Shown: one piece after another, positions 1,671-32,351 of the stretch | How positions within the stretch are numbered: position 1 is the stretch's first letter | How the letters are laid out: each line of letters starts with the position of its first letter | Origin: Acetobacteraceae bacterium | GTDB lineage: Bacteria; Pseudomonadota; Alphaproteobacteria; Acetobacterales; Acetobacteraceae | DNA: 32,351 nucleotides | Reading direction: 5' to 3' | Assembly (NCBI GenBank): GCA_027487675.1 | Contig: JAIYDD010000154.1 | Span: forward strand, 1 to 32,351 | Translations under genes and position numbers: made by a program | Notes under the pieces: generated by a model | The model's database searches: none | What the model was told of the DNA's origin: nothing | Seen by the model: the letters and a program-made list of their open reading frames with translations, nothing else

Positions 1671-1672
1671 GC

Positions 1673-2464: not shown

Positions 2465-3261
2465 GCGCGCTCCTCCGCCCCCGCCGCCGCGAAGAGCCGC
2501 CGGCGCAGCCGGTCGCACAGCGCGGTGAAGGCGGGCAGCAGCATGGTATCCAGGCCGCGCGGCCGCGGCAGCTCGATCGCGATGTCCTCCACGATGCGCG
2601 CCGGGCGGTTCGACAGCACGACGACGCGGTCGGAGAGGAACACCGCTTCCTGGATCCCGTGCGTCACGAACAGCACGGTGCGCTGCGAGCGTGCCCAGAA
2701 TTCCAGCAGTTCCAGCGCCATCCGCTCGCGGTTCAGCGCGTCCAGCGCCGCGAAGGGCTCGTCCATCAGCAGCACTTCCGGCTCGTGCACGAAGGCGCGC
2801 GCCAGGCCCGCGCGCTGCTGCATCCCGCCCGAGAGCTCGTGCGGATAGGCGCCTTCGAAGCCCGCCAGGCCGACCAGCGCGATCAACTCCCGCGCCCGGT
2901 CGCGCGCGCGCCGCATGTCGAGGCCCTGCGCGCGCGCCGGCACCAGCACGTTGTCCAGCACGCTGCGCCAGGGCAGCAGGGTGGGCTGCTGGAACACCAT
3001 GCCGACATCGCGCCGCGGCCCCGTCACCACCTGCCCCGCCAGCCGCACGCGCCCCGCCGAGGCCGGCAGCAGTCCCGCCGCCATCTTCAGCAGCGTGGAC
3101 TTGCCGCAGCCCGACGGCCCGAGGATCGAGACGAAGCTGCCGCGCGCCACCGACAGCGACACCTCCGCGATCGCCGGCAGCACGCCCGCTTCCGTGCGGT
3201 ATGTCAGCCGCACGCCCTCGAAGGCCAGCGCCGCTTCCGGCGCGGCGCCGGCCGCGGTCAT
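2461..3261 (-). CDS. ABC transporter ATP-binding protein, NitT/TauT (SsuB/TauB) type
   Basis: A 266-aa ATPase that energises the adjacent permease. Walker A GPSGCGKST lies at residues 48-56, the Q-loop glutamine near 91, signature LSGGMQQR at 143-150, Walker B LLMDEP at 164-169 and the switch histidine near 201. Size and the QQPTLLPW segment after the Q-loop are typical of SsuB/TauB. It overlaps both neighbours by 4 bp (ATGA), so translation of binding protein, ATPase and permease is probably coupled. Confidence 0.93.
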   Translation of the reverse strand: MTAAGAAPEAALAFEGVRLTYRTEAGVLPAIAEVSLSVARGSFVSILGPSGCGKSTLLKMAAGLLPASAGRVRLAGQVVTGPRRDVGMVFQQPTLLPWRSVLDNVLVPARAQGLDMRRARDRARELIALVGLAGFEGAYPHELSGGMQQRAGLARAFVHEPEVLLMDEPFAALDALNRERMALELLEFWARSQRTVLFVTHGIQEAVFLSDRVVVLSNRPARIVEDIAIELPRPRGLDTMLLPAFTALCDRLRRRLFAAAGAEERA

Positions 3262-4328: not shown

Positions 4329-4616
4329 CACCGTCCCCCTTCGCCGCGGCCGCGCCATTCTCCGGGTGGAACGCGCGGCCGCTTCGCCGTCCCGCCCCTT
4401 TGCCTCACGCGCTGCGCACGGCATCGGCGCGATGCCGCGCGCCTCGGCAGCATCATCCCGGCGCCGCGGCGCCGGGCAGGCGCGACGCCTGGCCAAGCAG
4501 GATCCGGGCCAAGCCGCAGCGCCAGTCTCGGCGCAGCCGGCGGCGCTTGGCAAGCGGGCCGGTTGCCCGCGGGCGCGCCGGGGTTCACTCTTCCCCGCAT
4601 GCCAGCGGGGGATCGC
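4329..4616. promoter_or_regulatory. Divergent intergenic region between the ABC importer operon and the molybdenum hydroxylase operon
   Basis: 288 bp without a convincing gene. It must carry the promoters of both operons. I see no good sigma-70 hexamers, but there are repeated half-sites: GGCCAAGC at 4491-4498 and 4507-4514 (16 bp apart) and the palindrome GCTTGGCAAGC at 4545-4555. These could be a binding array for a regulator encoded elsewhere. The open frames that cross the region are extensions of the flanking genes with GC-rich filler. Confidence 0.4.
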
Positions 4617-6968
4617 ATGCCGGATCGCGCCATCGGCCGCGCGCTGCCGCGGGACGCGTCGCGTCGCCTCGTCGCCGGCGGCGGCCGCTTCCTCGACGAC
4701 CATGCGGAGCGCGGCGAGCTGCATGCCGCCTTCCTGCGCAGCCCGCTGCCGCATGCGCGCTTCACGCTGCACACCGATGCCGCCGCCGCGCTGCCCGGCG
4801 TCGCCGCGGTGCTGACGGCGCGCGACCTCGCCGCGGTCTGCCGGCCCTGGCGCACCGTCTCCAAGGGGTTTCCGGGGCTGGTCTCGCCCGAACAGGCCCC
4901 GCTCGCCGATGGCCGCGCCAGCTGGCAGGGCGAGCCGGTGGCCATGGTGCTCGCCGCCTCCCGCGCCATCGCGGAGGACGCAGCGGAAGCCATCGACGCG
5001 GCGTGGGAGGAACTGCCCGCGGTGACCGATGTGCAGGCCGCGCTCGCCCCCGGCGCGCCGCCCGTGCATCCGGGGCTGGAGGGCAACCGCGCCTGGGGCA
5101 CCACCATCCGCCACGGCGATCCCGACGCCGCCTTCGCCGCCGCCGCGCTGGTGGTGGAGGAACGGCTGGTCTTCACCCGCCACACCGGCGTGCCGCTGGA
5201 ACCGCGCGGCGCGCTGGCGCTGTGGGAGAAGGGCACCGGCGCGCTGACGATCCGCCTGTCGCACCAGATGCCGCACCAGATGCGGCTGCACCTCGCCGAG
5301 CAGCTCGGCCTGCCGGTCAACCGCGTGCGCGTGGTCGCCGCCGATGTCGGTGGCGGCTTCGGCATCAAGATGCATGTGTACCAGGACGAGATGGCGGTGG
5401 CCGCCGCGTCGCGCCTGCTCGCGCGGCCGGTGCGCTGGGTGGCGGACCGGCTGGAATCGATGCTGGCCGACATCCATGCGCGGGAGCATGTCGTCACCGC
5501 GCGCCTCGCGGTGGATGCCGAGGGCCACATGCTGGGCTTCGACGTGCAGGATCTGCAGGGCCTCGGCGCCGTCTCGGTCTATCCGCGCAGCAGCACGGTC
5601 GAGGCGATGAGCCTGCTGCGCACGCTCGGCGCGCCCTATCGCTTCGCGCATGCCCGCGCGCGCATCGACAGCGTGCTGCAGAACAAGGTGCCGACCGGGC
5701 AGTACCGCGCCGTCGGCGCGCCGATCGGCTGCGCGGTGACCGAGCGCCTGATCGAGAAGGCCGCGGCCGCGCGCGGCGAGGACGCGCTTGCCTTCCGCGC
5801 GCGCAACCTGCTGCGGGCAGAGGAGATGCCGCTGGTCAACGGCTTCGGCGCCGCGCTGCACGGCCTGCACCACCATGCGGCGCTGGAGAAGGCGCGCGCG
5901 CTGATGGACCTGCCCGCGCTGCGCGCCGAGATCGCCGCAGGCCGCGCGGCGGGCCGGCTGCTCGGCCTCGGGCTTGCGGTGACGGTGGAGTTCACCGCCT
6001 CCGGCCCCGCCATCTATGGCGGCGCGGGCGTGCCGGTGGCCGCCACCGACACCGTCGTCGCGACGCTGGAGCCGACGGGCGAGGTCAGCGCCCAGGCCTC
6101 GATCACCGAGATCGGCCAGGGCATCACCCAGGGCCTGGCGCAGGTGCTGGCCGATGCGGTCGGCGTGCCGGCCGGGGCGGTGCGGGTGGAGGCGGGCGAC
6201 ACGGCGGCCGCGCCGCATGGCGGCGGCGCCTGGGCCAGCCGCGGCGCGGCGATCGGCGGTGAAGCCGCCTGGGGCGCCGGGCGCGCGCTGCGCGCGCAGC
6301 TGCTCGACGCCGCCGGCGCGCTGCTGCAGGCCGAGCCCGGCACGCTCGACATAAGCGACGGCGCGATCCTGGATGCCGCCGGCACGCCGCGGATGACGCT
6401 GGCGGAGCTCGGCCGTCTCATGCTGTTCCGCGGGCATGAATTGCCGCGCGGCGTGACGCCCTCGCTCTCGGCGGCCTTCCACTATCGGCGCGAGGGCGAT
6501 GCGACGCTGGCCAACAACGGCGTGCATGCCGCGCTGGTGGAGCTGGATGGCGGCAGCGGGCTGGTGCGCGTGCTGCGCTACTGGATGGTCGGCGATTGCG
6601 GCCGCGTGCTGAACCCGCTGCTGGTGGATGGCCAGTATCGCGGCGGCATCGCCACCGGCATCGGCGAGGCGCTGCTGGAAGCCTGCCGCTACGATGCCGA
6701 CAGCGGCCAGTTCCTGTCCGGCACGCTGGCCGACTACCTGCTGCCGATGGCGACCGACATCCCCGACATCACGCTGGGCCATGTCGAGACGCCCTATCCG
6801 CGCAGCGCGGTCGGCGCGAAGGGCGCCGGCGAATCCGGCACCTGCGGCGCGCCGGCGGCCATCCTGAACGCGGTGAACGACGCGCTGGCCGCGGCGGGCG
6901 GCGGCGCGGTGACGGAGCTGCCGATCCAGCCCGTCGCGGTGCTGCGCGCGCTGGGGCGGCTGGCATGA
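4617..6968 (+). CDS. Molybdopterin-binding large subunit of a xanthine dehydrogenase/CO dehydrogenase-family hydroxylase (CoxL-like)
   Basis: 783 aa, the catalytic Mo subunit of an L-M-S hydroxylase. Family signatures: VGGGFGIKM from about residue 244 (binds the Mo cofactor), the substrate loop GQYRAVGAP near 361, and GAGESGTCG with the presumed catalytic Glu at about 739. The loop lacks the AYRCSFR motif of true form-I CO dehydrogenase, so oxidation of CO is unlikely. Hydroxylation of an N-heterocycle, aldehyde or similar substrate is expected. The start at 4617 has a GGGGGA Shine-Dalgarno; an in-frame ATG at 4599 is an alternative. No Mo-cofactor maturation gene (CoxDEF, XdhC) lies in the window. 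Confidence 0.9.
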   Translation: MPDRAIGRALPRDASRRLVAGGGRFLDDHAERGELHAAFLRSPLPHARFTLHTDAAAALPGVAAVLTARDLAAVCRPWRTVSKGFPGLVSPEQAPLADGRASWQGEPVAMVLAASRAIAEDAAEAIDAAWEELPAVTDVQAALAPGAPPVHPGLEGNRAWGTTIRHGDPDAAFAAAALVVEERLVFTRHTGVPLEPRGALALWEKGTGALTIRLSHQMPHQMRLHLAEQLGLPVNRVRVVAADVGGGFGIKMHVYQDEMAVAAASRLLARPVRWVADRLESMLADIHAREHVVTARLAVDAEGHMLGFDVQDLQGLGAVSVYPRSSTVEAMSLLRTLGAPYRFAHARARIDSVLQNKVPTGQYRAVGAPIGCAVTERLIEKAAAARGEDALAFRARNLLRAEEMPLVNGFGAALHGLHHHAALEKARALMDLPALRAEIAAGRAAGRLLGLGLAVTVEFTASGPAIYGGAGVPVAATDTVVATLEPTGEVSAQASITEIGQGITQGLAQVLADAVGVPAGAVRVEAGDTAAAPHGGGAWASRGAAIGGEAAWGAGRALRAQLLDAAGALLQAEPGTLDISDGAILDAAGTPRMTLAELGRLMLFRGHELPRGVTPSLSAAFHYRREGDATLANNGVHAALVELDGGSGLVRVLRYWMVGDCGRVLNPLLVDGQYRGGIATGIGEALLEACRYDADSGQFLSGTLADYLLPMATDIPDITLGHVETPYPRSAVGAKGAGESGTCGAPAAILNAVNDALAAAGGGAVTELPIQPVAVLRALGRLA

Positions 6969-7801
6969 CGCCCGCCCGCTTCGCCTATGCGCGGCCGGCC
7001 ACGCTGGACGCCGCGCTGGACATGCTTGCGCGCGAGGAGGAGGCGACGCCGCTCGCCGGCGGGCAGAGCCTGGTGCCGATGATGGCGATGCGCGTCGCGC
7101 GCCCCGCGCTGCTGGTGGACCTGAACGCGCTGCCGGGGCTGGACGCGATCGAGGCCACGCCGGGCGTGCTGCGCATCGGCGCGCTGGCGCGCCACGCCGC
7201 GGTGCTGGACCACGAGCTGGTCGCGGCGGAAGCGCCGCTGCTGGCGCTGGCGCTGCGCGAGGTGGCGCATCCGGCCATCCGCAACCGCGGCACGCTGGGC
7301 GGCAGCCTGTGCCTGGCCGACCCGGCGGCGGAGCTGCCGGCCTGCATGGTGGCGCTGGACGCCACGCTGGTGCTGGCCTCCGCGGCGCGCGGCGAACGGC
7401 GCGTGGCGGCGCGCGACTTCTTCGCCGGCCTCTACGCCACCGCCCGCCGCGCCGACGAATTGCTGCTGCGCGCCGAGATCCCGCGCGCGCCCGGCTGGTC
7501 GCCCTGGTTCGAGGAGGTGGCGCGCCGCCGCGGCGACTACGCGATCGCGGGCCTCGCCGTGATGGCGCGGCGCGAGGCCGGGCGCATCGCCGCGCTGCGC
7601 CTGGCCTTCTGCGGCGTGGAGGCCGCGCCGCGCCGGCTGCCGGAGGTGGAGGCCGCGGTGATCGAGGGACGCGACGCGGCGGCGCTTCTGCCCGGCCTGC
7701 TCGCGCCGCTCGGCTCGGCCGAGGCGCCGGCCGCCTATCGCCTGCACCTGGCGCAGCTGCTGCTGCGCCGCGCGACGGAGCACGCCCATGCTGCCGCCTG
7801 A
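6965..7801 (+). CDS. FAD-binding medium subunit of the molybdenum hydroxylase (CoxM-like)
   Basis: 278 aa, typical for CoxM/XdhB-type subunits that carry FAD between the iron-sulfur clusters and the electron acceptor. The two FAD-binding motifs are visible: AGGQSLVPMM near residues 30-40 and IRNRGTLGGSL near 104-114. It overlaps the large subunit by ATGA and runs 14 bp into the small subunit gene, so the three are translationally coupled. Confidence 0.92.
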   Translation: MTPARFAYARPATLDAALDMLAREEEATPLAGGQSLVPMMAMRVARPALLVDLNALPGLDAIEATPGVLRIGALARHAAVLDHELVAAEAPLLALALREVAHPAIRNRGTLGGSLCLADPAAELPACMVALDATLVLASAARGERRVAARDFFAGLYATARRADELLLRAEIPRAPGWSPWFEEVARRRGDYAIAGLAVMARREAGRIAALRLAFCGVEAAPRRLPEVEAAVIEGRDAAALLPGLLAPLGSAEAPAAYRLHLAQLLLRRATEHAHAAA

Positions 7802-8288
7802 CGAGCCGCTCGCCGAGATCGCCTGCCGGGTCAATGGCCGCGCCGTGCGGGGCCGCGCGGCGCTGCGCCAGACGCTGGTGGAATGGCTGCGCGCCGATCT
7901 CGGCCTGACCGGCAGCCATGTCGGCTGCGCGCATGGCGTCTGCGGCGCCTGCCATGTGCGGCTGGACGGCGCGGTGGTGCGCGGCTGCCTGGTGCTGGCC
8001 GCGCAGGCCGATGGCGCCACGGTCGAGACGATCGAGGCCGCGGGCGGGCCCGAGGAGGCGGCGCTGCGCGACGCCTTCGTCGCCCATGCCGGGCTGCAAT
8101 GCGGCTTCTGCACGCCGGGGATGATCCTGCAGGCGGCGGAGCTGCTGCAGCGGAACCCCGCGCCATCGCGCGAGGCGATCCGCGACGCGCTGTCGGGCAA
8201 TTACTGCCGCTGCACCGGCTACCACGCGATCGTGGACGCGGTGGAGGCGGCGGCGCGCGCGCTGCGCGGGCCGGCCGCGACGGCGTGA
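7788..8288 (+). CDS. 2Fe-2S small subunit of the molybdenum hydroxylase (CoxS-like)
   Basis: 166 aa with both [2Fe-2S] domains intact. C47, C52, C55 and C67 form the plant-ferredoxin-type cluster (GCAHGVCGAC...GC). C105, C108, C140 and C142 form the second (CGFC...CRC). Length and spacing match CoxS/XdhC-type subunits. It is the last gene of the rightward operon and converges on the decarboxylase-like gene. The set of eight ligands argues for an active electron-transfer chain. Confidence 0.95.
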   Translation: MLPPDEPLAEIACRVNGRAVRGRAALRQTLVEWLRADLGLTGSHVGCAHGVCGACHVRLDGAVVRGCLVLAAQADGATVETIEAAGGPEEAALRDAFVAHAGLQCGFCTPGMILQAAELLQRNPAPSREAIRDALSGNYCRCTGYHAIVDAVEAAARALRGPAATA

Positions 8289-8323
8289 CGCGGCTTGGCG
8301 TCGTGCCACGCGCGTGACCGCGC

Positions 8324-8340
8324 CGGCGGCGACGCCGCCG
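8324..8340. terminator. GC-rich hairpin between convergent operons
   Basis: A perfect 8-bp inverted repeat around a single A (CGGCGGCG-A-CGCCGCCG) lies in the 63-bp gap between the CoxS stop and the stop of the leftward decarboxylase-like gene. In RNA the centre would open to a small loop. There is no T-run, so it may be a pause or stabiliser, or act with Rho. Confidence 0.35.
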
Positions 8341-8351
8341 CGGATCGCGCG

Positions 8352-9368
8352 CTACGCCTCGGTCAGTTCCAGCGTCGAAGGATGGAACAGCGCCTCCGGC
8401 TCGATCGGCGCGGCGCACATGCCGTCCGCCACGGCGAAGCGGATCATCGCCGCGATCTCCGCGCGGTTGCGCGCGAAGCCGTAGGGCCAGGGATCGCCGC
8501 CGATCAGCGCCATCTGCGCCTCCGCCTCCGCCGCGATCCAGGGCAGCGAGACGCGCAGCACGTTGACCAGCCGCAGCTCCGCCAGCGACAGCGCCTTGGC
8601 CTTCGCGAAGGCGTGGAACAGCGCGGCGGGGAGCCAGGGATGCGCCGCGGCGACATCCTTGCGCACGGTCAGGCAATGCATGATCGGGAAGAAGCCGGTG
8701 GCGCGGAAATACGCCTCCTCCTCCCGCCGGTAGTCGGGGAACAGCCGCGCGACGGGCGCGGTGGCGCGGGCGAAGCAGCTCGGCGGGCGGGGGCCGATGA
8801 TGGCGTCGAGCCTGCCATCGGCGAGCATCGCGTTCAGCGTCTCCTCCGCGCCGATCGCGCGCACGTCGAGGCCGGGCGGCAGGTCGAGCTTCACGCGCTC
8901 GCCCGCGCCCGGCTTCTCGAGCCCGCCGGTGCGCCAGGCGATGCCGCGCGTGTCGACGCCGTAGTGCTCCCGCAGCATGCCGCGCACCCACAGCGCTGCG
9001 GTCTGCTGGTATTCCGGCAGGCCGATGGTGCGGCCCGCCAGGTCCGCCGCGCTGGCGATGCCGCGGTCGCTGCGGATGTAGATCGCCGAATGGCGGAAGG
9101 CGCGGGAGAGGAAGACGGGCACGCCGACATAGGGCGCGTCGCCGCGTGCCGTCGTCACGATGTGCGACGACATCGACAGCTCCGTCACCTCGAAGGCGCG
9201 CTCGCGCAGCGCGCGGCGGAAGATGTCGTCCTCCTCCGGCACGCGGTGCAGCGCGGCCCCTTCCACCGCGACGCGGCCATCGAGCAGCGGCCGGCTGCGG
9301 TCGGTGAGGAAGCAGGCGAAGGACAGCGCCAGCGGCGCGGCCTGCGCGGCGCCTGTCGGGCCCGGCAT
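8352..9368 (-). CDS. 4,5-dihydroxyphthalate decarboxylase (Pht5)-like protein
   Basis: 338 aa without a signal peptide. The N-terminus (LSFACFLTDRSRPLLDGRV...) followed by the segment FRRALRERAFEVTELSMSS resembles the 4,5-dihydroxyphthalate decarboxylase family, whose fold is that of periplasmic binding proteins. Members are therefore often annotated as ABC substrate-binding proteins; the lack of an export signal argues for a cytosolic enzyme here. A GGGAAG Shine-Dalgarno precedes the ATG. It is the last gene of the six-gene leftward operon with three Bug proteins, which fits breakdown of an aromatic carboxylate. The real substrate is unknown. Confidence 0.75.
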   Translation of the reverse strand: MPGPTGAAQAAPLALSFACFLTDRSRPLLDGRVAVEGAALHRVPEEDDIFRRALRERAFEVTELSMSSHIVTTARGDAPYVGVPVFLSRAFRHSAIYIRSDRGIASAADLAGRTIGLPEYQQTAALWVRGMLREHYGVDTRGIAWRTGGLEKPGAGERVKLDLPPGLDVRAIGAEETLNAMLADGRLDAIIGPRPPSCFARATAPVARLFPDYRREEEAYFRATGFFPIMHCLTVRKDVAAAHPWLPAALFHAFAKAKALSLAELRLVNVLRVSLPWIAAEAEAQMALIGGDPWPYGFARNRAEIAAMIRFAVADGMCAAPIEPEALFHPSTLELTEA

Positions 9369-18953: not shown

Positions 18954-18957
<4 letters not shown>

Positions 18958-19778
18958 CCGCGCGCCCCCACATCGCCGGCCAGGCGCTCGATGCCGATGG
19001 TGCGGTCCAGCAGCACCAGCAGCACCACCGTGGCCGCCAGGAACACGGTGGAGACGGCGGCGATGGTGAGGTTGAGGTTCGCCCGCATCTCCGCCACCAG
19101 CGCGATCGGCAGCGTCTGGGTGAAGGCGTCGGAGAGGAACAGGCTGACCGCCACCTCGTCGAAGGACAGCACGAAGGCCATCGCCGCGCCGGCGACGATG
19201 CCGCTGCGCGCCGCCGGCACCGCCACGTCCCACAACGCGCGGAATTCCGACGCACCGAGCGACATCGCCGCTTCCACCTGCGACCGCTTCACGCCGATCA
19301 GGCTGGCCGCCACCGCGCGCAGCGTGAACGGCAGGGTGATGACGACATGCCCCAGGATCAGCCGCGTCATCGGTTCGTAGATGCCGAGCCGCGCGGTGAA
19401 GACCAGCAGCGAGAAGCCGATGACGACGGTGGGTATGAATTTCGGCGAGAGGAACGCGGCCTCCATCGCTTCCCGCCCCGGCAGGCGCGGATCGGCCAGC
19501 GCCAGCGCGGCGGCCAGCCCGACGGCGGTGGCGATGGCCGCCGCGATCACGCCGAGCTGCAGGCTGACGAACAAGCCATCCGTATAGGCCGGGTTGTCCA
19601 GGAAGGCGCGGTACCAGCGCAGCGAGAAGTCGCGCGGCGGGAAGGGCCCGAGGAAGCTGCGATCGTCGAAGGACATCAGGCAGGCGACCAGCAGCGGCAC
19701 CAGCAGGAAGGCCACCGCCGCCAACACGGCGACGCGCGCCGCGACGCGGCCAGCGAGGTCCAGCGCCGCGCCGATCAC
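18954..19778 (-). CDS. ABC transporter permease, PotC type (GTG start)
   Basis: 274 aa, about six membrane spans. The EAA loop EAAMSLGASEFRALWDVAVP marks the ATPase contact. The start is a GTG at 19778 that overlaps the preceding permease stop as GTGA, giving MIGAALDL then a membrane segment. The next upstream ATG would run far into the other permease in another frame. It is the PotC-position partner of the heterodimeric importer. Confidence 0.9.
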
Positions 19779-20626
19779 AGCCGCGCCCCCGGCAACACGC
19801 GCCGCGCCAGCGCCGACAGGCCATAGACCACGGCGAAGGCCAGGACGAGCATCACCACGCCGATGGCGGCGCCCGACGGGTAGTTCCCGATATCGGCGAA
19901 GCGCGTGTACATCAGGCTGGTCGCCAGCGTGACGATGCCGCGGCCCAGGATCAGCGGCACGACGAAGTTGCTGATGCACATCGCCAGCGCCACCAGGAAG
20001 GCCGAGACCAGGCCCGGCGCCGCCAGCGGCAGCACCACGCTGACCACCACGTCCGATCGCCGCGCGCCGAGCGAGGCGGCCGCTTCCTCCAGCCTCGGCG
20101 GCAGGGCGCGGAAGGTGCCGACCAGCATCAGCGCCACGACCGGCATGGTGAAGTGCAGCAGCCCGATCGCCACCTGCACCTCCGCGTAGCGCGGGCTGCG
20201 CGGCGCGATGCCGGTCAGCGCGCCGAGCGGCGCCAGCGGGCCGAGCGAGCCCCAGGCCATCTCGATCGCGTAGAGCCGCGCGATCAGGCTCATCACCAGC
20301 AGCCCGACCAGCAGCGCCAGCAGCAGCTTGCGCAGCAGCGCGCTGCGGCTGCGCACGGCGGCGAAGGCGAGCGGCGCGCCGAACAGCACCGAAAGCCCGG
20401 CGACGATGATCCCGAAGCGGAACGTCTCCTGGAAGTAGAACAGGTAGGCCGGCGCCAGCAGCTCGGTGTAGTTGCCGAGCGTGACGCCCTCCCCCGGGCG
20501 GATGCTGCCGGGGACGAAGGGCTTCAGGCTTTCCAGCACCAGCAGCACCACCGGCCCGCCCATCAGGGCGAGCAGCAGCAGCAGCCCCGGCGCCGCCAGC
20601 CACAGCGCGACGGGGATGCGGCGCAT
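19775..20626 (-). CDS. ABC transporter permease, PotB type
   Basis: 283 aa, about six membrane spans, with a strongly hydrophobic first helix (VALWLAAPGLLLLLALMG). The EAA loop reads EEAAASLGARRSDVVVSVVLP. The stretch after the first helix (KPFVPGS...LGNYTELL) is the periplasmic loop usual in PotB/CysT-like proteins. The ATG at 20626 overlaps the binding protein stop by one base (TGATG). Confidence 0.92.
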   Translation of the reverse strand: MRRIPVALWLAAPGLLLLLALMGGPVVLLVLESLKPFVPGSIRPGEGVTLGNYTELLAPAYLFYFQETFRFGIIVAGLSVLFGAPLAFAAVRSRSALLRKLLLALLVGLLVMSLIARLYAIEMAWGSLGPLAPLGALTGIAPRSPRYAEVQVAIGLLHFTMPVVALMLVGTFRALPPRLEEAAASLGARRSDVVVSVVLPLAAPGLVSAFLVALAMCISNFVVPLILGRGIVTLATSLMYTRFADIGNYPSGAAIGVVMLVLAFAVVYGLSALARRVLPGARL

Positions 20627-21720
20627 CAGGCGCGGCGGATCAGCGGCGTGATCTCCTGCTCCCAGCGCCGCGTCCAGCCATCCACCTGGGTTGCCATGTA
20701 GGCGTAGTCGGGGATGTAGGCGAAGCGGTCGAGCTCGTCGGGGCGGTAGAAGATGTCGGCGATCGCCGGGCTCGCGGTCGCGCTGCGGTTGGTGGGGCCG
20801 GAGCCGAGCGGCATGTTGTAGCGCGTGTTGATCTCGGCGGTGGCGAAGTGGTTGGCGAAGCGCTTGGCGGCGGCGATCCGGGCGCGGTTCTCGCCCTTCA
20901 TCACGGCAAAGCCTTCGTTGAACAGGAAGCCCTTGTTGTCGGTGAGCCGCGTCAGCAGGCGCGAGGGGAAGCGGTCGCGCACCGCCTGCCAGCCGCCGGT
21001 GTTCCAGAAGGCGACGGAGAGGTCGCCCGCGCTCATCGCGCTGATCATCTCGGAGTTGTTGGCGACGACGCGGCCGATGTTGCCGCGGCGCGCGAGTTCG
21101 GTCAGCAGCTGCCAGCCCGGCTCGATGTTGCGCTCATTGCCGCCGCGCTGCATCGCCAGGCTGACCAGCAGCAGGCCGGAAAGGTTGACGGGCACGGGGA
21201 CGCAGAGCTTGCCGCGGAAGCGCGGCTCCAGCAGCTGCTCCACGCTCTCGACCGGGCGATCCACCAGGTCCGTGCGGTAGCCCCAGAAGGCGCCGGCGGT
21301 GGACAGCGGCACGGTCATCTTGCGGCCCTGCGCGTCCTTCTTGAAGAAGATGTCGGGGATCTCCTTCAGCGCCGGCATCTCGTCCTCGTCCACCGGCTCC
21401 ATCCAGCCGGCTTCCATCATCGCGTCGAAGACCGGATCCCAGGCGGCGATCAGGTTCTGCTGGATGCGCGGCCAGATCGGGCGAAGGCGGCCGACCACGG
21501 CCATCGCGCCGCCCGCATGCAGCTCCCACTGGATGCGGTCGCCGGTGCGGCGCATCCATTCCTCGCCGATCGGGCGGCAGACCTCGATCCATTGCGCGCC
21601 CCACATGACGACGAGCAGCTGCTCGCCGCGGGGCTGCGCGAAGACCGGGCCGCCGCCGGCCGCGGCCATCGCGGCGCCGAGCGCGCCGACCAGCTCGCGC
21701 CGTCCGAGGGTGATGGACAT
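20626..21720 (-). CDS. PotD/AfuA-like extracellular solute-binding protein
   Basis: 364 aa, first gene of the importer operon. MSITLGRRELVGALGAAMAAAGGGPVFA is a signal sequence with a weak twin-arginine motif. The mature chain has the type-2 binding protein layout, with FRGKLCVPVPVNLSG and the hinge-region segment SAMSAGDLSVAFWNTGGW. Polyamines, ferric iron, thiamine and putrescine-like compounds are known ligands in the family, so the ligand is open. The start at 21720 lies 12 bp after a GGAG; an upstream in-frame ATG at 21756 would put the start inside the palindromic control region. Confidence 0.88.
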   Translation of the reverse strand: MSITLGRRELVGALGAAMAAAGGGPVFAQPRGEQLLVVMWGAQWIEVCRPIGEEWMRRTGDRIQWELHAGGAMAVVGRLRPIWPRIQQNLIAAWDPVFDAMMEAGWMEPVDEDEMPALKEIPDIFFKKDAQGRKMTVPLSTAGAFWGYRTDLVDRPVESVEQLLEPRFRGKLCVPVPVNLSGLLLVSLAMQRGGNERNIEPGWQLLTELARRGNIGRVVANNSEMISAMSAGDLSVAFWNTGGWQAVRDRFPSRLLTRLTDNKGFLFNEGFAVMKGENRARIAAAKRFANHFATAEINTRYNMPLGSGPTNRSATASPAIADIFYRPDELDRFAYIPDYAYMATQVDGWTRRWEQEITPLIRRA

Positions 21721-21791: not shown

Positions 21792-23129
21792 ATGACGCCA
21801 GACCTGGTGCTGACGGAGGTCACGCTGCTGACGCCGGGCGCTGCGCCCGTCGCGCCGGCCTTCGTCGCGATCGGCGGGGAACGCATCCTGGCCTGCGGCC
21901 CGATGGCGGCGCTGCCGCCATCCGACGCGCCGGTGCTGGCGCTGCCGGGGCGCGTGGTGACGCCGGGGCTGGTCAACATCCACACCCATGCGGTGCTGTC
22001 GCTGATGCGCGGCATCGCCGTGGATATGGGCTTCGCGCCCGCCTACACGCCCGGCGTGCCGCATGGCCACGAGATCGCGCCGGAAGAGGCGGAGGCGCTG
22101 GCGCGGCTCGGCGCGATGGAAGCGCTGCTGATGGGCTCCACCGTCATGGTGGACAGCTACGTCCATGCCGACCTGACGCTGCCGGCGATGGCCGGGCTCG
22201 GGCTGCGGGTCTGGGCCTGCGGGCGGTTGCACGATGTCGACTTCTCCCGCGTGCATTTGGCCGATTGGCGGCACGAGGCGGCGATCGGCGCGCACCGGCT
22301 GGGCGAGGTCCGGAAGCTGATTGCCGATTTCGAAGGCAGTCATGGCGGGCGGGTGCACGTGATCGTGGCACCGCATGCGCCGGACACCTGCTCGGCCGCG
22401 CTGCTGCGCCAGGCGGCGGAGCTGGCGCGCGACGCCGGGCTGCGCACCACGACCCACCTGTCGCAGTCGAAGCTGGAGAATGCGCAGATCCTCAAGCGCG
22501 ACGGCTGCACCCCGGCCGAGCTGCTGGCGCGCACCGCTCTGCTGGATGAGCGGCTGATCGCCGCGCACTGCATCCACATGACGCCGGACGACATGGCGCG
22601 CTTCGGCGCGGCCGGCGCGACGGTGGCGCATGTGCCGAAGGGCAACGCGACGGGCGGCGCCATCGCCGACACGCCGGCGCTGCGCGGCGCGGGCGCGAAC
22701 ATCGCCATCGGCACGGACAACCTGACGCAGGACATGGCCGAGCAGATGCGCTGGGCGCTGGCGACCGCGCGCATCCGGCTGGGCGGCGTGCACCAGGACT
22801 GGCAGCCGGAGGACGCCTTCGCCATGGCGACGGTGAACGGCGCCAGGGCGCTTGGCCAGCAGGGCGTGCTGGGCGAGGTGGCGCCGGGCGCGCAGGCGGA
22901 TCTGGTCGTGTGGGATTTCCGCCGCGCGCATCTGACGCCGCTGCTCGATCCGCTCGGCACGCTGGTGCATGACGCGAATGGGCGCGACGTGGAGCATGTG
23001 TGGGTCGCCGGCCGCCAGGTGGTGCGCGACGGCGCGCCGGTCTTCGCCGACGAGGCGGCGGTGCGGGCGGCGGCGCAGCGCGTGTCGGAGGATCTGTGGC
23101 GGCGCGCGCGGGAGAGCGTCGCGTCTTGA
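21792..23129 (+). CDS. Metal-dependent amidohydrolase (AtzA/SsnA/guanine-deaminase class)
   Basis: 445 aa. Metal residues: H64 and H66 in NIHTHA, H222 in THLSQS, H259 in AAHC and D309 in GTDN. At the position where most deaminases of the class have the acid of HxxE, this protein has Q225 (HLSQ), so its chemistry may differ from a simple deaminase. A GGAGGA Shine-Dalgarno lies 8 bp before the ATG at 21792, which makes it better than the ATG at 21738 inside the palindromic region. Divergent from the PotABCD-like importer, it probably acts on the imported substrate. The stop codon lies within the first unit of a tandem repeat. Confidence 0.85.
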   Translation: MTPDLVLTEVTLLTPGAAPVAPAFVAIGGERILACGPMAALPPSDAPVLALPGRVVTPGLVNIHTHAVLSLMRGIAVDMGFAPAYTPGVPHGHEIAPEEAEALARLGAMEALLMGSTVMVDSYVHADLTLPAMAGLGLRVWACGRLHDVDFSRVHLADWRHEAAIGAHRLGEVRKLIADFEGSHGGRVHVIVAPHAPDTCSAALLRQAAELARDAGLRTTTHLSQSKLENAQILKRDGCTPAELLARTALLDERLIAAHCIHMTPDDMARFGAAGATVAHVPKGNATGGAIADTPALRGAGANIAIGTDNLTQDMAEQMRWALATARIRLGGVHQDWQPEDAFAMATVNGARALGQQGVLGEVAPGAQADLVVWDFRRAHLTPLLDPLGTLVHDANGRDVEHVWVAGRQVVRDGAPVFADEAAVRAAAQRVSEDLWRRARESVAS

Positions 23130-23260
23130 CGCGCGGGCATGGTCGCGTCTTGACGCGCGGGTGGCGGGACGGCGTGACGCGCGGGCAAGCTCGCGTCCTG
23201 GCGCGCGGGCGGAGTCGCGTCTTGACGCGCGGATGGGCGCGCGTCCTGGCGCCGTCAGGG
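23117..23260. repeat. Six-copy 24-bp tandem repeat of hairpins between convergent genes
   Basis: Units start at 23117, 23141, 23165, 23189, 23213 and 23237, exactly 24 bp apart. The core CGCGTCTTGACGCG is a perfect inverted repeat with 6-bp arms and a TT loop; it is intact in units 1, 2 and 5, altered by the same two changes (TTGA to CTGG) in units 4 and 6, and degenerate in unit 3. The array begins at the amidohydrolase stop codon (23127-23129 lies in unit 1) and its last unit reaches the stop of the convergent regulator gene. A bidirectional terminator or RNA-stabilising array is plausible. Confidence 0.85.
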
Positions 23261-23980
23261 CGCCGCCGGCGGGTCTTCCGGCAGCAGCGCGGCCTGCAGG
23301 TCCACGGGCGGCGCCGGCGGGCGCGGACGCAGACGGCGCAGATTCTCCAGCAGATGGCCGGCGGCGATGCGGCGCGCGGCCTCGGCATCGCCCGCGGCCA
23401 GGCCCTCGATCAGCGCGACATGGTCGTCGATGGCGCAGCTCGCCTTCTCGGGCGGGTAGAGCGCCGTCATCAGGCTGGTCCGCGCGATGATGCGGTCGAG
23501 CGTCGCGGCCAGCACGCGGTTGCCGTGCAGCCGCGCCAGCACGCGGTGGAAATCGCCCATCAGCCGCAGGTATTCGCGGCGGTCGCCGGCGGCCTCGGCC
23601 TCCATCTGGCGGGCCACGTGCTCGCGCAGGCGGCGCAGATCGGCGGCGGTGATGTTCTGCGCGAGCTCCGCCGCCATCGCGCCCTCGATCAGCGCGCGTG
23701 CGCGATAGGCTTCCTCGGCGTCCTCGGGCGTCGGGTTGGCGACCGCGGCGCCGCGGTTCGGCGACAGCACCACCACCTCGCGCTCGGCCAGCGACCGCAG
23801 CGCGTCGCGCACGGCGCCGCGGCTGGCGCGGAAGATCGCGGCCAGCGCTTCCTCCCGCAGGCGGGTGCCGGCGGGCAGGCGGCCATCCGCCACGGCCTGC
23901 CAGACGGCGTCCACGATGCGGGCGGCAAGGACGGCGGCGGGCTCGGCGGGGCGGGCCTCCGGCAGGAGGGCAGTTCGCAT
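23255..23980 (-). CDS. GntR-family transcriptional regulator, FadR/FCD type
   Basis: 241 aa. The winged helix-turn-helix spans about 15-80 (GTRLREEALAAIFRASRGAVRDALRSL then the wing PNRGAAV). The C-terminal FCD domain spans about 88-215 with the likely metal-binding histidines H145 (GDFH), H187 (DDH) and H209 (AGH). It diverges from the ring-opening-hydrolase-like gene and is likely its regulator and its own: a site matching the FadR-type consensus lies 53 bp upstream of its start. Effectors in this subfamily are usually small organic acids. The 3' end lies in a tandem repeat. Confidence 0.9.
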   Translation of the reverse strand: MRTALLPEARPAEPAAVLAARIVDAVWQAVADGRLPAGTRLREEALAAIFRASRGAVRDALRSLAEREVVVLSPNRGAAVANPTPEDAEEAYRARALIEGAMAAELAQNITAADLRRLREHVARQMEAEAAGDRREYLRLMGDFHRVLARLHGNRVLAATLDRIIARTSLMTALYPPEKASCAIDDHVALIEGLAAGDAEAARRIAAGHLLENLRRLRPRPPAPPVDLQAALLPEDPPAAP

Positions 23981-24092: not shown

Positions 24093-25124
24093 ATGACCGC
24101 CTGCCTCCCCATCCGCCTGCCGATGACCGCGCCCGACGATCTCGGCGCCTTCGAGGCGATGCTGGACGATGGCCGCATCGACCCCGCCGGCGTGGTCGCG
24201 CTGTGGTGCAAGACGCGCGGCAACGGGCTGCTCAACGACTTCACCAAGCCCTGGGTCGACCTGCTTCTGCGCCTCGCGCTCGCGAAGCGCCTCGGCGTGA
24301 CGGAGGCGGAGGTGGCGGAACGCGTGCCGATCCTCGTCTCCGGCGGGGCGGAAGGCGCGGTCTCGCCGCATCTCGTCGTCTGGTGCCGCGGCCGGGCCGG
24401 CGCGCAGGGCCTGCTCTGCGGCGTCGCGCGCGCCGCGATCCCGCCGGATGCGCTCGGCGCCGAAGGCCAGGCGCTGGCGACGGCGCGCATGGTGCGCGGC
24501 GCGATGGAAGCGCTCGGCGTCGCCGATCCCGCGCAGGTGGGCCTGGTGCTGGTGCGCGCGCCGTCGCGGCCGGAGGTGCCGGGTCTCGATGCCCGGGTGC
24601 GCATCGCCGGCGCGCAGGGCACCGCACTCGCGCTCGGCGAGATCGCGCGCGTCGCGCCGGAGGATCCGGGCAGCCACGCGCATCGCGCCTTCGTCGTCGC
24701 GCGCCATGACGGGCCGATGCAGCAGGTGATGCTGCTGGCGAACGGCGCGGGCGGCGATCCGCGCTTCGCCGTGGCGCATGGGCTGCTCGCCGATCCGCTG
24801 GATGCGCCGGGGGCGGCGGCGATCCTCGGCCGGCTCGGGCTGGCGGCGGCGCCGCAGCTGCCGGCCGAGCGGTCCGCGCGCGTGCTCGCCGTGATCTCGA
24901 AGGGCGATGCGCCGCGCGGCCATGTGCTGCGCGGCCTGCCGCATGCGATGTCGCTCGACAACGACGTCGCCATGCACCGCCATGCGCGCGCCGCCTATGG
25001 CGCGATGCTCGGCGCCGTCATCGGCCATGCGGCCGTCCTCGTCTCCGGCGGCGCCGAGGCGCAGGGCCCGCCCGATGGCGGCTTCGCCGCCATCGTCGCC
25101 GCCACCGAAGGACACATCCCATGA
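24093..25124 (+). CDS. Cyanuric acid hydrolase/barbiturase (AtzD/TrzD) family ring-opening amidohydrolase, divergent
   Basis: 343 aa. The family fold is three similar domains, each giving a Ser-Lys dyad. The first dyad is present (K40 in KTRGNGLLNDFT, S83 in LVSGGAEGAVSPH), as is the third (K270 in ISKGDAP, S318 in LVSGGAEAQGPPDGG). The middle one appears lost: where AtzD, as I recall it, has VKCPLL and a SASAG serine, this protein has VRAPSR (R155) and RAFVVA. Domain B is also shorter. It may open a different ring or do other chemistry. The start at 24093 is preferred to 24063, which falls where the -10 box should be. Coupled by ATGA to the oxygenase. Confidence 0.82.
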   Translation: MTACLPIRLPMTAPDDLGAFEAMLDDGRIDPAGVVALWCKTRGNGLLNDFTKPWVDLLLRLALAKRLGVTEAEVAERVPILVSGGAEGAVSPHLVVWCRGRAGAQGLLCGVARAAIPPDALGAEGQALATARMVRGAMEALGVADPAQVGLVLVRAPSRPEVPGLDARVRIAGAQGTALALGEIARVAPEDPGSHAHRAFVVARHDGPMQQVMLLANGAGGDPRFAVAHGLLADPLDAPGAAAILGRLGLAAAPQLPAERSARVLAVISKGDAPRGHVLRGLPHAMSLDNDVAMHRHARAAYGAMLGAVIGHAAVLVSGGAEAQGPPDGGFAAIVAATEGHIP

Positions 25125-26113
25125 CCGACGTGCCGATCATCGACCTGTCGCCGATCCGCGGCGGCGACGCGGCGGCCATCGCCGCGCTCGGCGCGCAGGT
25201 GGACGAGGCCTGCCGGCGCATCGGCTTCCTGATCGTGGAAGGCCATGCCGTGCCGGCCGCGCTGATCGCGGAATTCCGCCGCCTGTCCTTCGCCTTCTTC
25301 GACCTGCCGGAGGAGGAGCGGATGGCGCTGCGCCCGCCGCCGGGCACCATGCTGCGCGGCTACACGCCGCCCGAGACGAACACCCTCGCGCGGTCCCGCG
25401 GCGTCGAGACGCCGCCCGATTTCCGCTCGATGCTCTCGATCGGCCGGCCGGAAGTGACCGGCGCCGAATACCCGCAGTTCGAGGGCGCGCGCCCGTTCTA
25501 CCGCCCGAACCTCTGGCCCGCGCGCCCCGACGGGCTGCGCGACGCCTTCACCGCCTATTTCCGCGAGATGGAGCGCCTGGCGGCCGAGATCATGCGCGCC
25601 TTCGCCGCCGCGCTGCGCCTCGACCTGCGCTTCTTCGACGACAAGATCGACAACCATTTCTCCGCGCTGCACGCGCTGCACTACGGCGCGCAGCCGACGC
25701 CGCCGCGCGAGGGCCAGCTGCGCGCCGGCGCGCATTCGGATTTCGGCAGCCTCACCATCCTGATGCCGCCGGCGGAAGGCGGCATGGGCCTGGAAGTGCA
25801 GCGCCCGGATGGCAGCTTCGCGCCGGTGGAGCCGCCGCCGGGCGCCTATGTGATCAACATCGGCGACCTGATGCAGCAATGGACCAATGACCGCTGGGTC
25901 AGCACGGTGCATCGCGTGGTGAACCCGCCGGGCGGCGCCTGGGCGACGCGGCGGCTGTCCATCGGCTTCTTCTGCCATCCGAACTACGACGCGCCGGTGG
26001 CCGCGCTGCCCGGCACGGTGCCGGCCGGCGAGGCGCCGCGCCACGCGCCGGTGCTGGCGGGCGAGTACATGCACGCCAAGATCTCGGCGGTGCGGCGCCA
26101 GGCGGCGGCCTGA
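25121..26113 (+). CDS. Isopenicillin N synthase-like Fe(II)/2-oxoglutarate-dependent oxygenase
   Basis: 330 aa. The N-terminal DIOX_N region reads VPIIDLSPI...CRRIGFLIVEGH. The iron triad is intact: H205 and D207 in GAHSDFG, and H264 in STVHRVVNP. R278 and S280 (RRLS) match the RxS motif that holds 2-oxoglutarate. Bacterial members of this family mostly act on small hydrophobic or heterocyclic substrates and are rarely characterised. It overlaps the ring-opening-hydrolase-like gene by 4 bp, so the two are almost certainly one pathway: oxidise then open, or the reverse. Confidence 0.92.
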   Translation: MTDVPIIDLSPIRGGDAAAIAALGAQVDEACRRIGFLIVEGHAVPAALIAEFRRLSFAFFDLPEEERMALRPPPGTMLRGYTPPETNTLARSRGVETPPDFRSMLSIGRPEVTGAEYPQFEGARPFYRPNLWPARPDGLRDAFTAYFREMERLAAEIMRAFAAALRLDLRFFDDKIDNHFSALHALHYGAQPTPPREGQLRAGAHSDFGSLTILMPPAEGGMGLEVQRPDGSFAPVEPPPGAYVINIGDLMQQWTNDRWVSTVHRVVNPPGGAWATRRLSIGFFCHPNYDAPVAALPGTVPAGEAPRHAPVLAGEYMHAKISAVRRQAAA

Positions 26114-28076: not shown

Positions 28077-28319
28077 ATGGCCCAGCTTCTGGTGCGGAAC
28101 GTGGACGAGGAGACGGTGGCCCGCCTGAAGGCCCGCGCCGCCGCGCATGGCCGCTCGGTGGAAGCCGAGCACCGCGAGATCCTTCGCGCCGCGCTGGAGG
28201 ACGACCCGCAGGCGGAGTTCCGCCGCCTGGCCGCGCTGTCCCGCGCCGCGACCGCACCCTTCCGGGACCGCCAGACGCCGGCCGAAATCCTTCAGCGCGA
28301 GACGCGCGAGGAGCGGTGA
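28077..28319 (+). CDS. FitA/VapB-type ribbon-helix-helix antitoxin
   Basis: 80 aa. The N-terminal 45 residues (AQLLVRNVDEETVARLKARAAAHGRSVEAEHREIL) follow the FitA pattern VIRNL...KxRAxxxGRSxEAExRxIL, a ribbon-helix-helix DNA-binding domain. The remainder is the flexible tail that should neutralise the toxin. Its stop overlaps the toxin's GTG start (GTGA), the usual coupling of such pairs. Confidence 0.9.
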   Translation: MAQLLVRNVDEETVARLKARAAAHGRSVEAEHREILRAALEDDPQAEFRRLAALSRAATAPFRDRQTPAEILQRETREER

Positions 28320-28726
28320 GGGAGCGTCTTCTCCTCGACGCCAGCGTCGCGATCAAGGTCGTGGTCGCCGAGGCGGACAGCGAGCTGGCGCTGCGCGTGC
28401 TGGACCACGCGCTGGTGGCGCCCGACCTGCTGATGGCCGAATGCGGCAACATACTGTGGAAGAAGGTGCGTCGCGACGAGATGCCGGCCGAGGCGGCGGA
28501 CCAGGCGGCCGCCGCGCTGCTGGCGCTGCGGGTGGAGATCCTGCCGGCCTCCCGCTTCCTGCCGGGCGCGCTGCGCCGGGCCATCCGCGTCGGCCACCCG
28601 GTCTACGACTGCCTCTATGCCGAGGCTGCCGCGACCCTCGGCCTGCCCCTGGTGACTGCCGACCGGCGGCTGCAGGCCCTGGCCGGGCCGGGGCTGCGGG
28701 TGATCGGCCTGGACGACCTGCCCTGA
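28316..28726 (+). CDS. FitB/VapC-type PIN-domain toxin (ribonuclease), GTG start
   Basis: 136 aa. The PIN active-site acidic residues are in place: D8 (LLLDAS), E42 (AECGN), D98 (VYDCLYAE) and D116 (TADRRL). Metal-dependent RNA cleavage, often of tRNA or rRNA, is the known activity of the family. The GTG at 28316 overlaps the antitoxin stop. The TGA stop (28724-28726) overlaps the presumed CTG start of recF, so toxin and recF may be translationally coupled. Confidence 0.92.
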   Translation: MRERLLLDASVAIKVVVAEADSELALRVLDHALVAPDLLMAECGNILWKKVRRDEMPAEAADQAAAALLALRVEILPASRFLPGALRRAIRVGHPVYDCLYAEAAATLGLPLVTADRRLQALAGPGLRVIGLDDLP

Positions 28727-29907
28727 CGCCGCCCGCCCCCCCGCCGCCGCTGCGCCTTTCGCGCCTCAGGCTCACCGATTTCCGCTCCTACCCCGCCTTC
28801 GAGGCGCGCTTCGAGGGCCGCATCGTCGCGATCGCCGGGGAGAACGGCGTCGGCAAGACCAACCTGCTGGAGGCGATCAGCCTGCTCGGCCCGGGGCGCG
28901 GGCTGCGCGGGGCGCGGGCGGCCGAGATCGGCCGGCGCGCCGGCGCCGAGCCCGCCCGCCCCTGGGCCGCCTTCGGGCGCTTCGAAGGCCCGCTGGGCCC
29001 CGCCGAGATCGGCACCGGCACGGCGGGCGAGGACAGCCCCGATTCGCGCCGCAAATGGCGCCTGGACGGGGAGGCGCTGCGTTCCTCGGCCGAGCTGGCG
29101 GACCGCGCCGCCGCGGTCTGGCTGACGCCGCAGATGGACCGGCTGTTCCAGGAAGGGGCAAGCGGCCGCCGGCGCTTCCTGGACCGCCTGACCTGGGCGC
29201 TGGAACCGGCCCATGCGCGGGAGGTGGCGGCGCATGAGACCGCCATGGCCGGCCGCAACCGCCTGCTGGCCGAGGGCCGCCGCGACCCCCGCTGGCTGGC
29301 GGCGCTGGAGGATGCGATGGCGCGCCATTCGGTCGCCGCCGCCGCCGCCCGCCGCGCGCTGGTGGCGCGGCTGAACGGGCTGCTGGCCGGCGGCGCCGCC
29401 ACCGGGGCTTTCCCGGCGGCGCGGCTGGACCTGGCCTGCCCCGTCTCCGCCGCGCTGGACGGGGCGCCGGCGCTGGCGGTGGAGGACCGGCTGCGGGACC
29501 AGCTGGCATCCTCCCGCGCGCGCGATGCGCAGGCGGGCGGGGCCGCCATCGGCGCCCACCGGGCGGATCTGGCGCTGACCCACCTGCCCAAGGACCTGCC
29601 GGCCGAGCTGTGCTCGACCGGGGAGCAGAAGGCGCTGCTGGTCTCCGTCGTGCTGGCCCATGCGCTGCTGATCGGCGCGGCGCGCGGCTTCGCGCCGCTG
29701 CTGCTGCTGGACGAGGTGGCGGCCCACCTGGACCAGCGGCGGCGGGAGGCGCTGTATGCCGCGCTGGCCGCCCTGCCGGCGCAGGTCTTCCTGACGGGCA
29801 CGGAGAGCGATATCTTCGCGTCCCTGAAAGGGTTCGCCGAGGGCTTCCGCGCCACCCCGTCCGGCCTCGTTCCGCTGGCCGAATTCCGCGTGCCGGACGC
29901 CGTCTGA
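28723..29907 (+). CDS. recF: RecF, DNA replication and repair ATPase, probable CTG start
   Basis: 394 aa from 28723. RecF loads RecA at gaps together with RecO and RecR. The N-terminus LRLSRLRLTDFRSYPAF is canonical, Walker A GENGVGKTN has its lysine at 45, the signature CSTGEQKALL starts near 297 and Walker B LLLLDEVAAHLD near 326. There is no in-frame ATG, GTG or TTG between the conserved start and the ATG at 28441, which lies inside the toxin gene and would give a nonsensical 94-residue leader. The CTG at 28723 overlaps the toxin stop as CTGA. gyrB follows after 51 bp, the ancestral gene order; dnaN is not seen upstream. Confidence 0.9.
   Translation: MTPPAPPPPLRLSRLRLTDFRSYPAFEARFEGRIVAIAGENGVGKTNLLEAISLLGPGRGLRGARAAEIGRRAGAEPARPWAAFGRFEGPLGPAEIGTGTAGEDSPDSRRKWRLDGEALRSSAELADRAAAVWLTPQMDRLFQEGASGRRRFLDRLTWALEPAHAREVAAHETAMAGRNRLLAEGRRDPRWLAALEDAMARHSVAAAAARRALVARLNGLLAGGAATGAFPAARLDLACPVSAALDGAPALAVEDRLRDQLASSRARDAQAGGAAIGAHRADLALTHLPKDLPAELCSTGEQKALLVSVVLAHALLIGAARGFAPLLLLDEVAAHLDQRRREALYAALAALPAQVFLTGTESDIFASLKGFAEGFRATPSGLVPLAEFRVPDAV

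Positions 29908-32351
<2,444 letters not shown>

Follow-up and report, generated by a model that had tools for sequence, protein, structure and literature searches.

Genomic context of the two-dyad protein

We analyzed a 32,351-nucleotide stretch of an Acetobacteraceae genome, referred to throughout as the window (contig JAIYDD010000154.1, assembly GCA_027487675.1). It carries a gene for a 343-residue protein of the AtzD/barbiturase family, P0001, here called the two-dyad protein, alongside genes for an ABC transporter, an aminohydrolase, a regulator and an oxygenase. The features of the locus are as follows:

18954..19754, minus strand: ABC permease, PotC-like (profile match and comparison of loci)
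19775..20626, minus strand: ABC permease, PotB-like (profile matches and comparison of loci)
20626..21720, minus strand: ABC transporter substrate-binding protein, SBP_bac_8 (Pfam)
21792..23129, plus strand: TRZ/ATZ-type metal aminohydrolase (PF01979)
23255..23980, minus strand: GntR/FCD regulator, divergent (Pfam)
24093..25124, plus strand: two-dyad AtzD/barbiturase-family protein (PF09663, TIGR02714, AlphaFold2 and Foldseek)
25121..26113, plus strand: 2OG-Fe(II) oxygenase (PF14226 and PF03171, Pfam), with a 4-base overlap between its start and the two-dyad stop

Elsewhere in the window, positions 258-9368 hold a second N-heterocycle-like gene set with a TRZ/ATZ-type aminohydrolase (258-1673, minus strand), ABC transporter parts and a molybdenum hydroxylase of three subunits (about 4800-8288, plus strand). 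At the right end (28147-32349), near the operon, are an ORF for a RecF/SMC-type ATPase and gyrB.

The two-dyad protein is a member of PF09663 by profile and by fold, which bears out the family assignment originally made from the sequence. It scores 213.8 bits with the PF09663 profile against a Pfam cut-off of 25, and 176.2 bits with TIGR02714, above the curated cut-off of 153.1; its best NCBIfam match, the AtzD equivalog NF052395, reaches 212.5 bits and stays under the cut-off of 360. Sequence matches in the PDB number seven: five cyanuric acid hydrolases, one ring-opening amidohydrolase and one barbiturase. The AlphaFold2 model, built from 53 input sequences, has a mean pLDDT of 95.0 and a pTM of 0.94 and contains the three-domain Toblerone fold, with Toblerone-fold enzymes making up the top 33 Foldseek matches (query TM 0.85-0.92) and cyanuric acid hydrolases and their kin, such as 6bum and 5t13, the best of them (TM 0.89-0.92). 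The protein should not be labeled a cyanuric acid hydrolase or a barbiturase. Two further family members in the host genome (L001 and L002) have all three dyads.

Replacement of the middle Ser-Lys dyad

The identity of the attacking serine in this family is a matter of published debate. Peat et al. 2013 (PMC3758960) reported that the dyad residues are conserved across 68 homologs and that AtzD variants at every dyad residue, K162R among them, are inactive, and hypothesized that Ser85-Lys42 of dyad 1 is catalytic in AtzD. For the Azorhizobium cyanuric acid hydrolase, Cho et al. 2014 (PMC4051656) reported that Ser to Ala at any dyad costs about 10^8- to 10^9-fold and Lys to Ala about 10^4-fold, with S226A, at the middle Ser, the worst of the three Ser mutants (a loss of about 10^9-fold). 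In the same study Ser226/Lys156 is the only dyad absolutely conserved in 119 sequences, Glu230 is likewise conserved, and Ser226 of dyad 2 is proposed as the nucleophile. Shi et al. 2019 (PMC6557486) supported the middle Ser and questioned whether Ser83 could attack at site A of the Moorella enzyme. The 2017 paper on the structure of TrzD (PMC5366886) called the difference of interpretation unresolved and favored the middle domain. The premise of the original prediction, that the middle dyad is regarded as conserved and has been proposed as catalytic, thus matches PMC4051656, PMC6557486 and PMC3758960.

To place the window protein among its relatives, family members were gathered from its own genome, 146 relatives, 385 genomes of its class, 23 of one family, 397 of its own family and 398 of its phylum, in draws that partly overlap, and from a pattern scan of GTDB contigs in which 110 stretches matched and nine loci were confirmed. 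The resulting survey comprises 122 rows (15 from the clade described below, 106 other family members and one PDB sequence), leaves out duplicates, fragments, L045, L048, L086 and L093, and has its dyad columns located by motif. Three dyads are present in 98 rows, the PDB row included; 15 rows have no middle Ser and have Asp for the neighboring Glu; five have Phe or Val with an adjacent Ser; and in four only dyad 2 is complete. The residues of the window protein that bear on this comparison are:

24210..24212, plus strand: K40, Lys of dyad 1, kept (14 of the 14 clade rows that reach the position)
24339..24341, plus strand: S83, the dyad-1 Ser, retained in all 15 clade rows
24555..24557, plus strand: R155, at the Lys position of dyad 2, which is lost (all 107 non-clade rows have Lys here, and 13 of the 15 clade rows have Arg)
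24696..24698, plus strand: V202, at the Ser position of dyad 2, which is lost (102 of the 107 non-clade rows have Ser here, and all 15 clade rows have Val)
24702..24710, plus strand: R204 and D206, replacing a Gly and the conserved Glu in all 15 clade rows (of the 107 others, 100 have the Gly and 105 the Glu)
24900..24902, plus strand: K270, the dyad-3 Lys, retained in all 15 clade rows
24975..24977, plus strand: H295, at AtzD position 321, His as in barbiturase-signature rows (all 15 clade rows and 7 of the 107 others)
25044..25046, plus strand: S318, the dyad-3 Ser, retained in all 15 clade rows

The residue numbers first given for the two conserved pairs, K40/S83 and K270/S318, are correct on this alignment, and the reading of the middle domain holds as well: R155 (within VRAPS) stands in the Lys column of the 107 non-clade rows and V202 in the Ser column, where AFVVARHD takes the place of STSAGVE-type sequence. 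The family feature of three Ser-Lys dyads with an absolutely conserved middle one is therefore absent, the Ser being missing from all 15 clade members and the Lys from 13 of them; L052 and L079 retain the Lys. The Glu beside the middle dyad (ACAH Glu230) is Asp throughout the clade. Aligned with the Moorella cyanuric acid hydrolase and 106 other non-clade members, the protein shows no gap between the anchors that flank dyad 2. The model, examined as the original prediction had proposed, also puts R155 and V202 at the dyad positions: by strand position rather than by superposition, K40, R155 and K270 all occupy the seventh place in their strands (34-40, 149-156 and 264-271), just as S83 and V202 both occupy the fourth place in theirs (80-83 and 199-203). 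Because the flanks are gapless, the model strands agree and 15 loci share the same states, chance or misalignment at dyad 2 is rejected. A search of the middle domain (residues 105-236) for a replacement dyad found zero Lys, and Ser only at 158 and 194, so no Lys of that domain can occupy the dyad position; a dyad rebuilt elsewhere in the domain is rejected, and the counter-case named with the original prediction, a middle-domain Lys and Ser at the dyad positions, is impossible as regards the Lys. The middle domain is shorter, as first read: 15 residues separate the Lys-2 and Arg-2 positions, against a median of 32, but some three-dyad relatives are equally short (range 13-32).

The basic positions that bind substrate are retained in the two-dyad protein as K52 (conservative for Arg), R170 and R299. 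All 15 clade rows retain Arg-2 and Arg-3, and at Arg-1 ten have Lys and five Arg. One corner of the three-fold pocket is changed, from Ser, Lys, Gly and Glu to Val, Arg (Lys in two members), Arg and Asp. At the family metal site, which is described as a loop GGxEHQGPxGG plus a Glu in PMC5366886, the two-dyad protein reads GGAEAQGPPDGG, and D272 replaces the Glu in 15 of 15 clade rows.

A monophyletic clade under purifying selection

The change of Ser to Val, Gly to Arg and Glu to Asp is common to 15 alphaproteobacterial proteins from 12 genomes (Acetobacteraceae, Tagaea-like and Telmatospirillum-like). With the dyad-2 columns omitted, these proteins are monophyletic in a tree of 50 rows (bootstrap 100, SH-aLRT 99) and in a tree of 69 rows (SH-aLRT 99), so that homologs with the same substitutions form one clade, a possibility the original prediction had put forward for checking. 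Besides the window protein, the Acetobacteraceae members L108 (the locus of Roseococcus sp. SDR), L109, L110, L113, L118 and L120 are 69-75% identical to it. Three Tagaea-like genomes each carry two members, at 60-61% (L087-L089) and 45-46% identity (L080-L082), and Telmatospirillum-like genomes carry L052 and L079, at 40-42%. The clade was found in five of the 397 genomes of its own family, the host included, with profile scores of 412-533 bits and a next best of 279; in the class sample of 385 genomes it occurs in the host and in G215 (L052), and in the phylum sample of 398 genomes only in the host. Among 132 plasmid records no match of at least 60% identity was found, the best of the 30 listed being 36% identical, and no clade member was seen. 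The clade is under purifying selection, with dN/dS of 0.07-0.36 in all 12 of the pairs tested.

Twelve residues are near-invariant in the clade and rare outside it: C39, L46, V90, F200, V202, R204, D206, Q210, P235, D272, Y302 and M305. In the model the strand that formerly bore dyad 2 carries F200 and V202, and R204 and D206 follow directly after it. The His at AtzD position 321, as noted above, is shared with seven non-clade rows, all of which also carry Asn195, Lys325 and Val345, the other residues of the barbiturase (group VI) signature Asn195, His321, Lys325 and Val345 as given in PMC3758960. At these four positions the two-dyad protein has Arg, His, Arg and Gly, a single match. In the 50-row tree the clade joins three-dyad relatives (98/96), apart from the barbiturase-signature rows, and for this reason its His looks like a separate gain; membership in the barbiturase group by way of His321 is rejected by the tree and by the remaining signature residues.

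Two other groups in the survey depart from the three-dyad pattern. L030, L032, L043, L044 and L046 form a separate clade (bootstrap 100) with Phe or Val in the middle-Ser column, a Ser one residue further on and the Glu kept, which may represent a shifted or lost dyad 2. L042, L047, L049 and L069 resemble the two-dyad clade as cases of natural dyad loss in the family, but are its mirror image, with dyad 2 as the sole complete pair: Gln stands at Lys-1, Ile at Ser-1 and Asn at Lys-3, and Ser-3 is Asn in three of them and Ser in L069.

Among characterized enzymes, the cyanuric acid hydrolases AtzD, TrzD and Moorella CAH (4bvq, 5t13 and 6bum) share with the two-dyad protein the Toblerone fold (TM 0.89-0.92 at 28-31% identity), dyads 1 and 3, the three basic positions and the SGG loops. 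They differ from it at R155, V202, R204 (Gly) and D206 (Glu), in T321, which is His here, in the length of the middle domain and in its low AtzD equivalog score. Barbiturase (5hwe, 5hxu) shares the fold and the His, whereas the two-dyad protein has neither Asn195, Lys325 and Val345 nor the middle dyad, and its His looks like a separate gain by the tree. A third structure, the ring-opening amidohydrolase 5hy0 (PDB title ‘orotic acid hydrolase’), presumably from Frankia, was compared by fold rather than residue by residue; it is alike at TM 0.89-0.90, and its titled substrate has fewer ring carbonyls. PMC3758960, in contrast to the state of the two-dyad protein, reports the dyads kept in all six groups of the family, group V with Frankia included.

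An associated 2OG-Fe(II) oxygenase

The nearest solved structure of the oxygenase encoded immediately after the two-dyad gene is the thymine dioxygenase 5c3p (E 6.9e-42); the protein has an HxD at 205-207 and a candidate distal His at 264. The sharing of this neighbor by homologs, put forward for checking in the original prediction, holds for the subclade of the window and fails for five members: at ten of the 15 loci the next gene downstream, in the same orientation, encodes the oxygenase, namely the window, L087 (partial), L088, L089, L108, L109, L110, L113, L118 and L120. At L052 an oxygenase is present on the other strand. Orthologs at 74-81% identity occur in the same five of 397 family genomes as the clade and adjoin the two-dyad gene in all five, the next best match being 52% identical. 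Among loci of like length (3-4.2 kb), a 2OG oxygenase is found in nine of 13 from the clade (its 15 members less L109 and L110) against three of 90 from outside it, counts given without a probability because the rows are related. The link is not exclusive to dyad loss, since a 2OG oxygenase is likewise encoded close to three-dyad relatives outside the clade (L056, L057 and L072), and it may predate the loss, given the position of L056 close to the clade in the tree. In the Tagaea-like genome G483 (L105:2435-3369) the oxygenase beside the two-dyad gene matches over its first 165 residues only and is followed by an unrelated ORF (2435-2992, plus strand) with no Pfam match, the break being an insertion or a misassembly.

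Six loci of the nearest non-orthologous 2OG oxygenases carry hydantoinase/oxoprolinase subunits in three cases (A in L180, L181 and L182; B in L180 and L181) and amidases in three (L178, L181 and L182), along with an isochorismatase-fold protein in L179, sarcosine oxidase subunits in L182 and MmgE/PrpD in L177. These neighbors suggest that oxygenases of this kind partner ring- or amide-opening enzymes, of which the two-dyad protein would be one of several. The combination at L182 (G770), where a distant 2OG oxygenase accompanies an amidase, hydantoinase A and sarcosine oxidase subunits, resembles a creatinine/N-methylhydantoin-like set.

Conservation of the surrounding genes

Neighboring genes vary between subclades. 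The whole gene set of the window (transporter, aminohydrolase, GntR regulator, two-dyad gene and oxygenase) recurs in L106, L107 and L113, each with a 79-86% identical homolog of the substrate-binding protein, and in part on the short contig L105. Among the 13 short clade loci, eight have a homolog of the aminohydrolase, whose PDB neighbors include MTA/SAH deaminase, atrazine chlorohydrolase and 8-oxoguanine deaminase, and seven have a homolog of the GntR/FCD regulator. No homolog of the window-type aminohydrolase, GntR regulator or transporter was found in the available sequence of L108, L109, L110, L118 and L120, of which L109 ends at a contig end, and this speaks against a simple pathway.

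All five members that have no directly downstream oxygenase adjoin an aminohydrolase or deaminase. For L080-L082 this is an aminohydrolase together with a PuuE-allantoinase-like protein (for the L104 copy, 322 bits with TIGR03212, under the cut-off of 424.6). For L052 and L079 it is a deaminase that has guanine and guanosine deaminases as its closest relatives of solved structure (L052 copy), along with a member of the ureidoglycolate-lyase family (PF04115, 67.8 bits for the L101 copy). In the Roseococcus-like loci L162, L163 and L164, the membrane urate oxidase PuuD (PF06181) lies about 2.7 kb from the pair of two-dyad gene and oxygenase, and in L163 and L164 a transthyretin-type HIUase (PF00576) lies about 3.9 kb from the two-dyad gene. 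Membership in a urate pathway by way of these genes is given no weight, because DUF1501 and DUF1800 genes intervene, as confirmed in L163.

Proposed function of the two-dyad clade

Within titles and abstract openings of mostly non-subscription literature, a scope that does not extend to a 2012 family survey or a 2017 paper on a cyclic amide hydrolase structure, neither a clade of this family with no middle dyad nor an oxygenase partner was found; the two-dyad clade is real, conserved and undescribed within the literature covered. We infer that its members are cyclic-amide hydrolases that act, with a probability somewhat better than even, through dyad 1, or less likely through dyad 3, on a nucleobase-derived ring other than cyanuric acid, where hydrolysis, the attacking serine, the class of substrate and the order of steps are all deduced from the observed residue states, clade, modeled fold, selection, neighbors and co-occurrence. 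A working hydrolase is argued from the two intact dyads, the retained basic contacts, purifying selection and a catabolic-looking operon. Weighing against it are the large losses of activity in published mutants at each of the three dyads, the doubt of Shi et al. about Ser83, and the differences in gene neighborhood between subclades.

Under this proposal the middle dyad would have been lost once, in the clade, leaving the Val and Arg-Asp arrangement in its place. Uptake of the ring would fall to the ABC transporter and its preparation to the aminohydrolase. Lys40 would activate Ser83 for attack on a ring carbonyl, using the dyad that Peat et al. proposed for AtzD, and a second carbonyl would be held and polarized by Ser318, Lys270 and Arg299. 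The third corner, having no nucleophile, would suit a ring with fewer carbonyls or with another group there; the Val, Arg, Arg and Asp of this corner would fit a ring that has no third carbonyl or bears a different substituent. The ring is most likely a cyclic ureide or imide derived from a nucleobase, of barbiturate-, uracil/orotate- or hydantoin-like type, and the 2OG oxygenase would hydroxylate this ring, or else the product of its opening. Neighbors that resemble thymine dioxygenase and nucleobase deaminases, together with the barbiturase-type His, point to a pyrimidine-, ureide- or hydantoin-like ring, for which any exact substrate is a guess. A narrower version, tentative and in our judgment rather doubtful as a whole, would have the ring opened through dyad 1 with no use of the presumed family nucleophile; the substrate would be a nucleobase ring with two carbonyls, such as 5-carboxyuracil, orotate, uracil or a hydantoin, in an undescribed oxidative pathway, with the thymine-dioxygenase-like protein as partner and R204 reading the group at the former third-carbonyl site.

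The roles of the two surviving dyads may be exchanged, with Ser318-Lys270 nucleophilic and dyad 1 binding. Dyad 3 is retained in every clade row, and the clade-specific Y302 and M305 sit in the helix of R299. Dyad 1 is equally retained, however, and the published proposals, in the portions drawn on here, name Ser85 of dyad 1 (Peat et al.) or Ser226 of dyad 2 (Cho et al.) and none names dyad 3; we regard an attack by Ser318 as credible but unlikely. A more distant departure is that the protein is a non-hydrolytic relative, serving as a ligand-binding, regulatory or substrate-channeling partner of the 2OG oxygenase, a role compatible with the absence of the serine favored as nucleophile by Cho et al. 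and Shi et al., and with the finding that in 397 genomes no oxygenase ortholog (at least 74% identity) was found apart from the two-dyad gene. Against such a role, two complete dyads and three basic positions are kept under purifying selection, and five of the 15 members have no directly downstream oxygenase, with L080-L082 adjoining aminohydrolase and PuuE-like genes instead; we consider it decidedly unlikely. The intact dyads, purifying selection, the catabolic operon and the barbiturase-type His favor a predicted hydrolase of a non-triazine ring over a non-hydrolytic relative.

Other chemistry in the same pocket, by a tautomerase, isomerase or decarboxylase acting on the product of the oxygenase, has a slim chance: new invariant residues do replace the dyad (F200, V202, R204 and D206, and also C39), but the portions of the family papers drawn on here yielded no precedent in PF09663, and the neighboring genes fit amide hydrolysis. 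That the clade is a cyanuric acid hydrolase tolerating a degenerate middle dyad is very unlikely, to the point of being nearly negligible, since published enzymes lose all or nearly all hydrolysis of cyanuric acid after one substitution at dyad 2 (S226A, and K162R in AtzD); the best NCBIfam match is the model of that amidohydrolase, though far under its cut-off, and the host genome already has L001 and L002. A decaying gene or pseudogene, or a sequencing artefact, found no support and can be set aside as having virtually no probability, with open frames, states shared by 15 loci from 12 genomes and dN/dS well below one in every pair tested.

Returning to the proposed ring-opening hydrolase, its significance lies in the mechanism of the family as a whole. 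The case for the middle Ser as nucleophile rests partly on its absolute conservation in 119 sequences (PMC4051656), a conservation that the clade breaks while keeping the other dyads. If the clade is hydrolytic, the middle dyad cannot be the universal nucleophile. The clade and the members in which only dyad 2 is complete offer a natural pair of experiments on which serine attacks. The close partnership with the oxygenase further points to an unassigned route of ring degradation in Acetobacteraceae and their kin.
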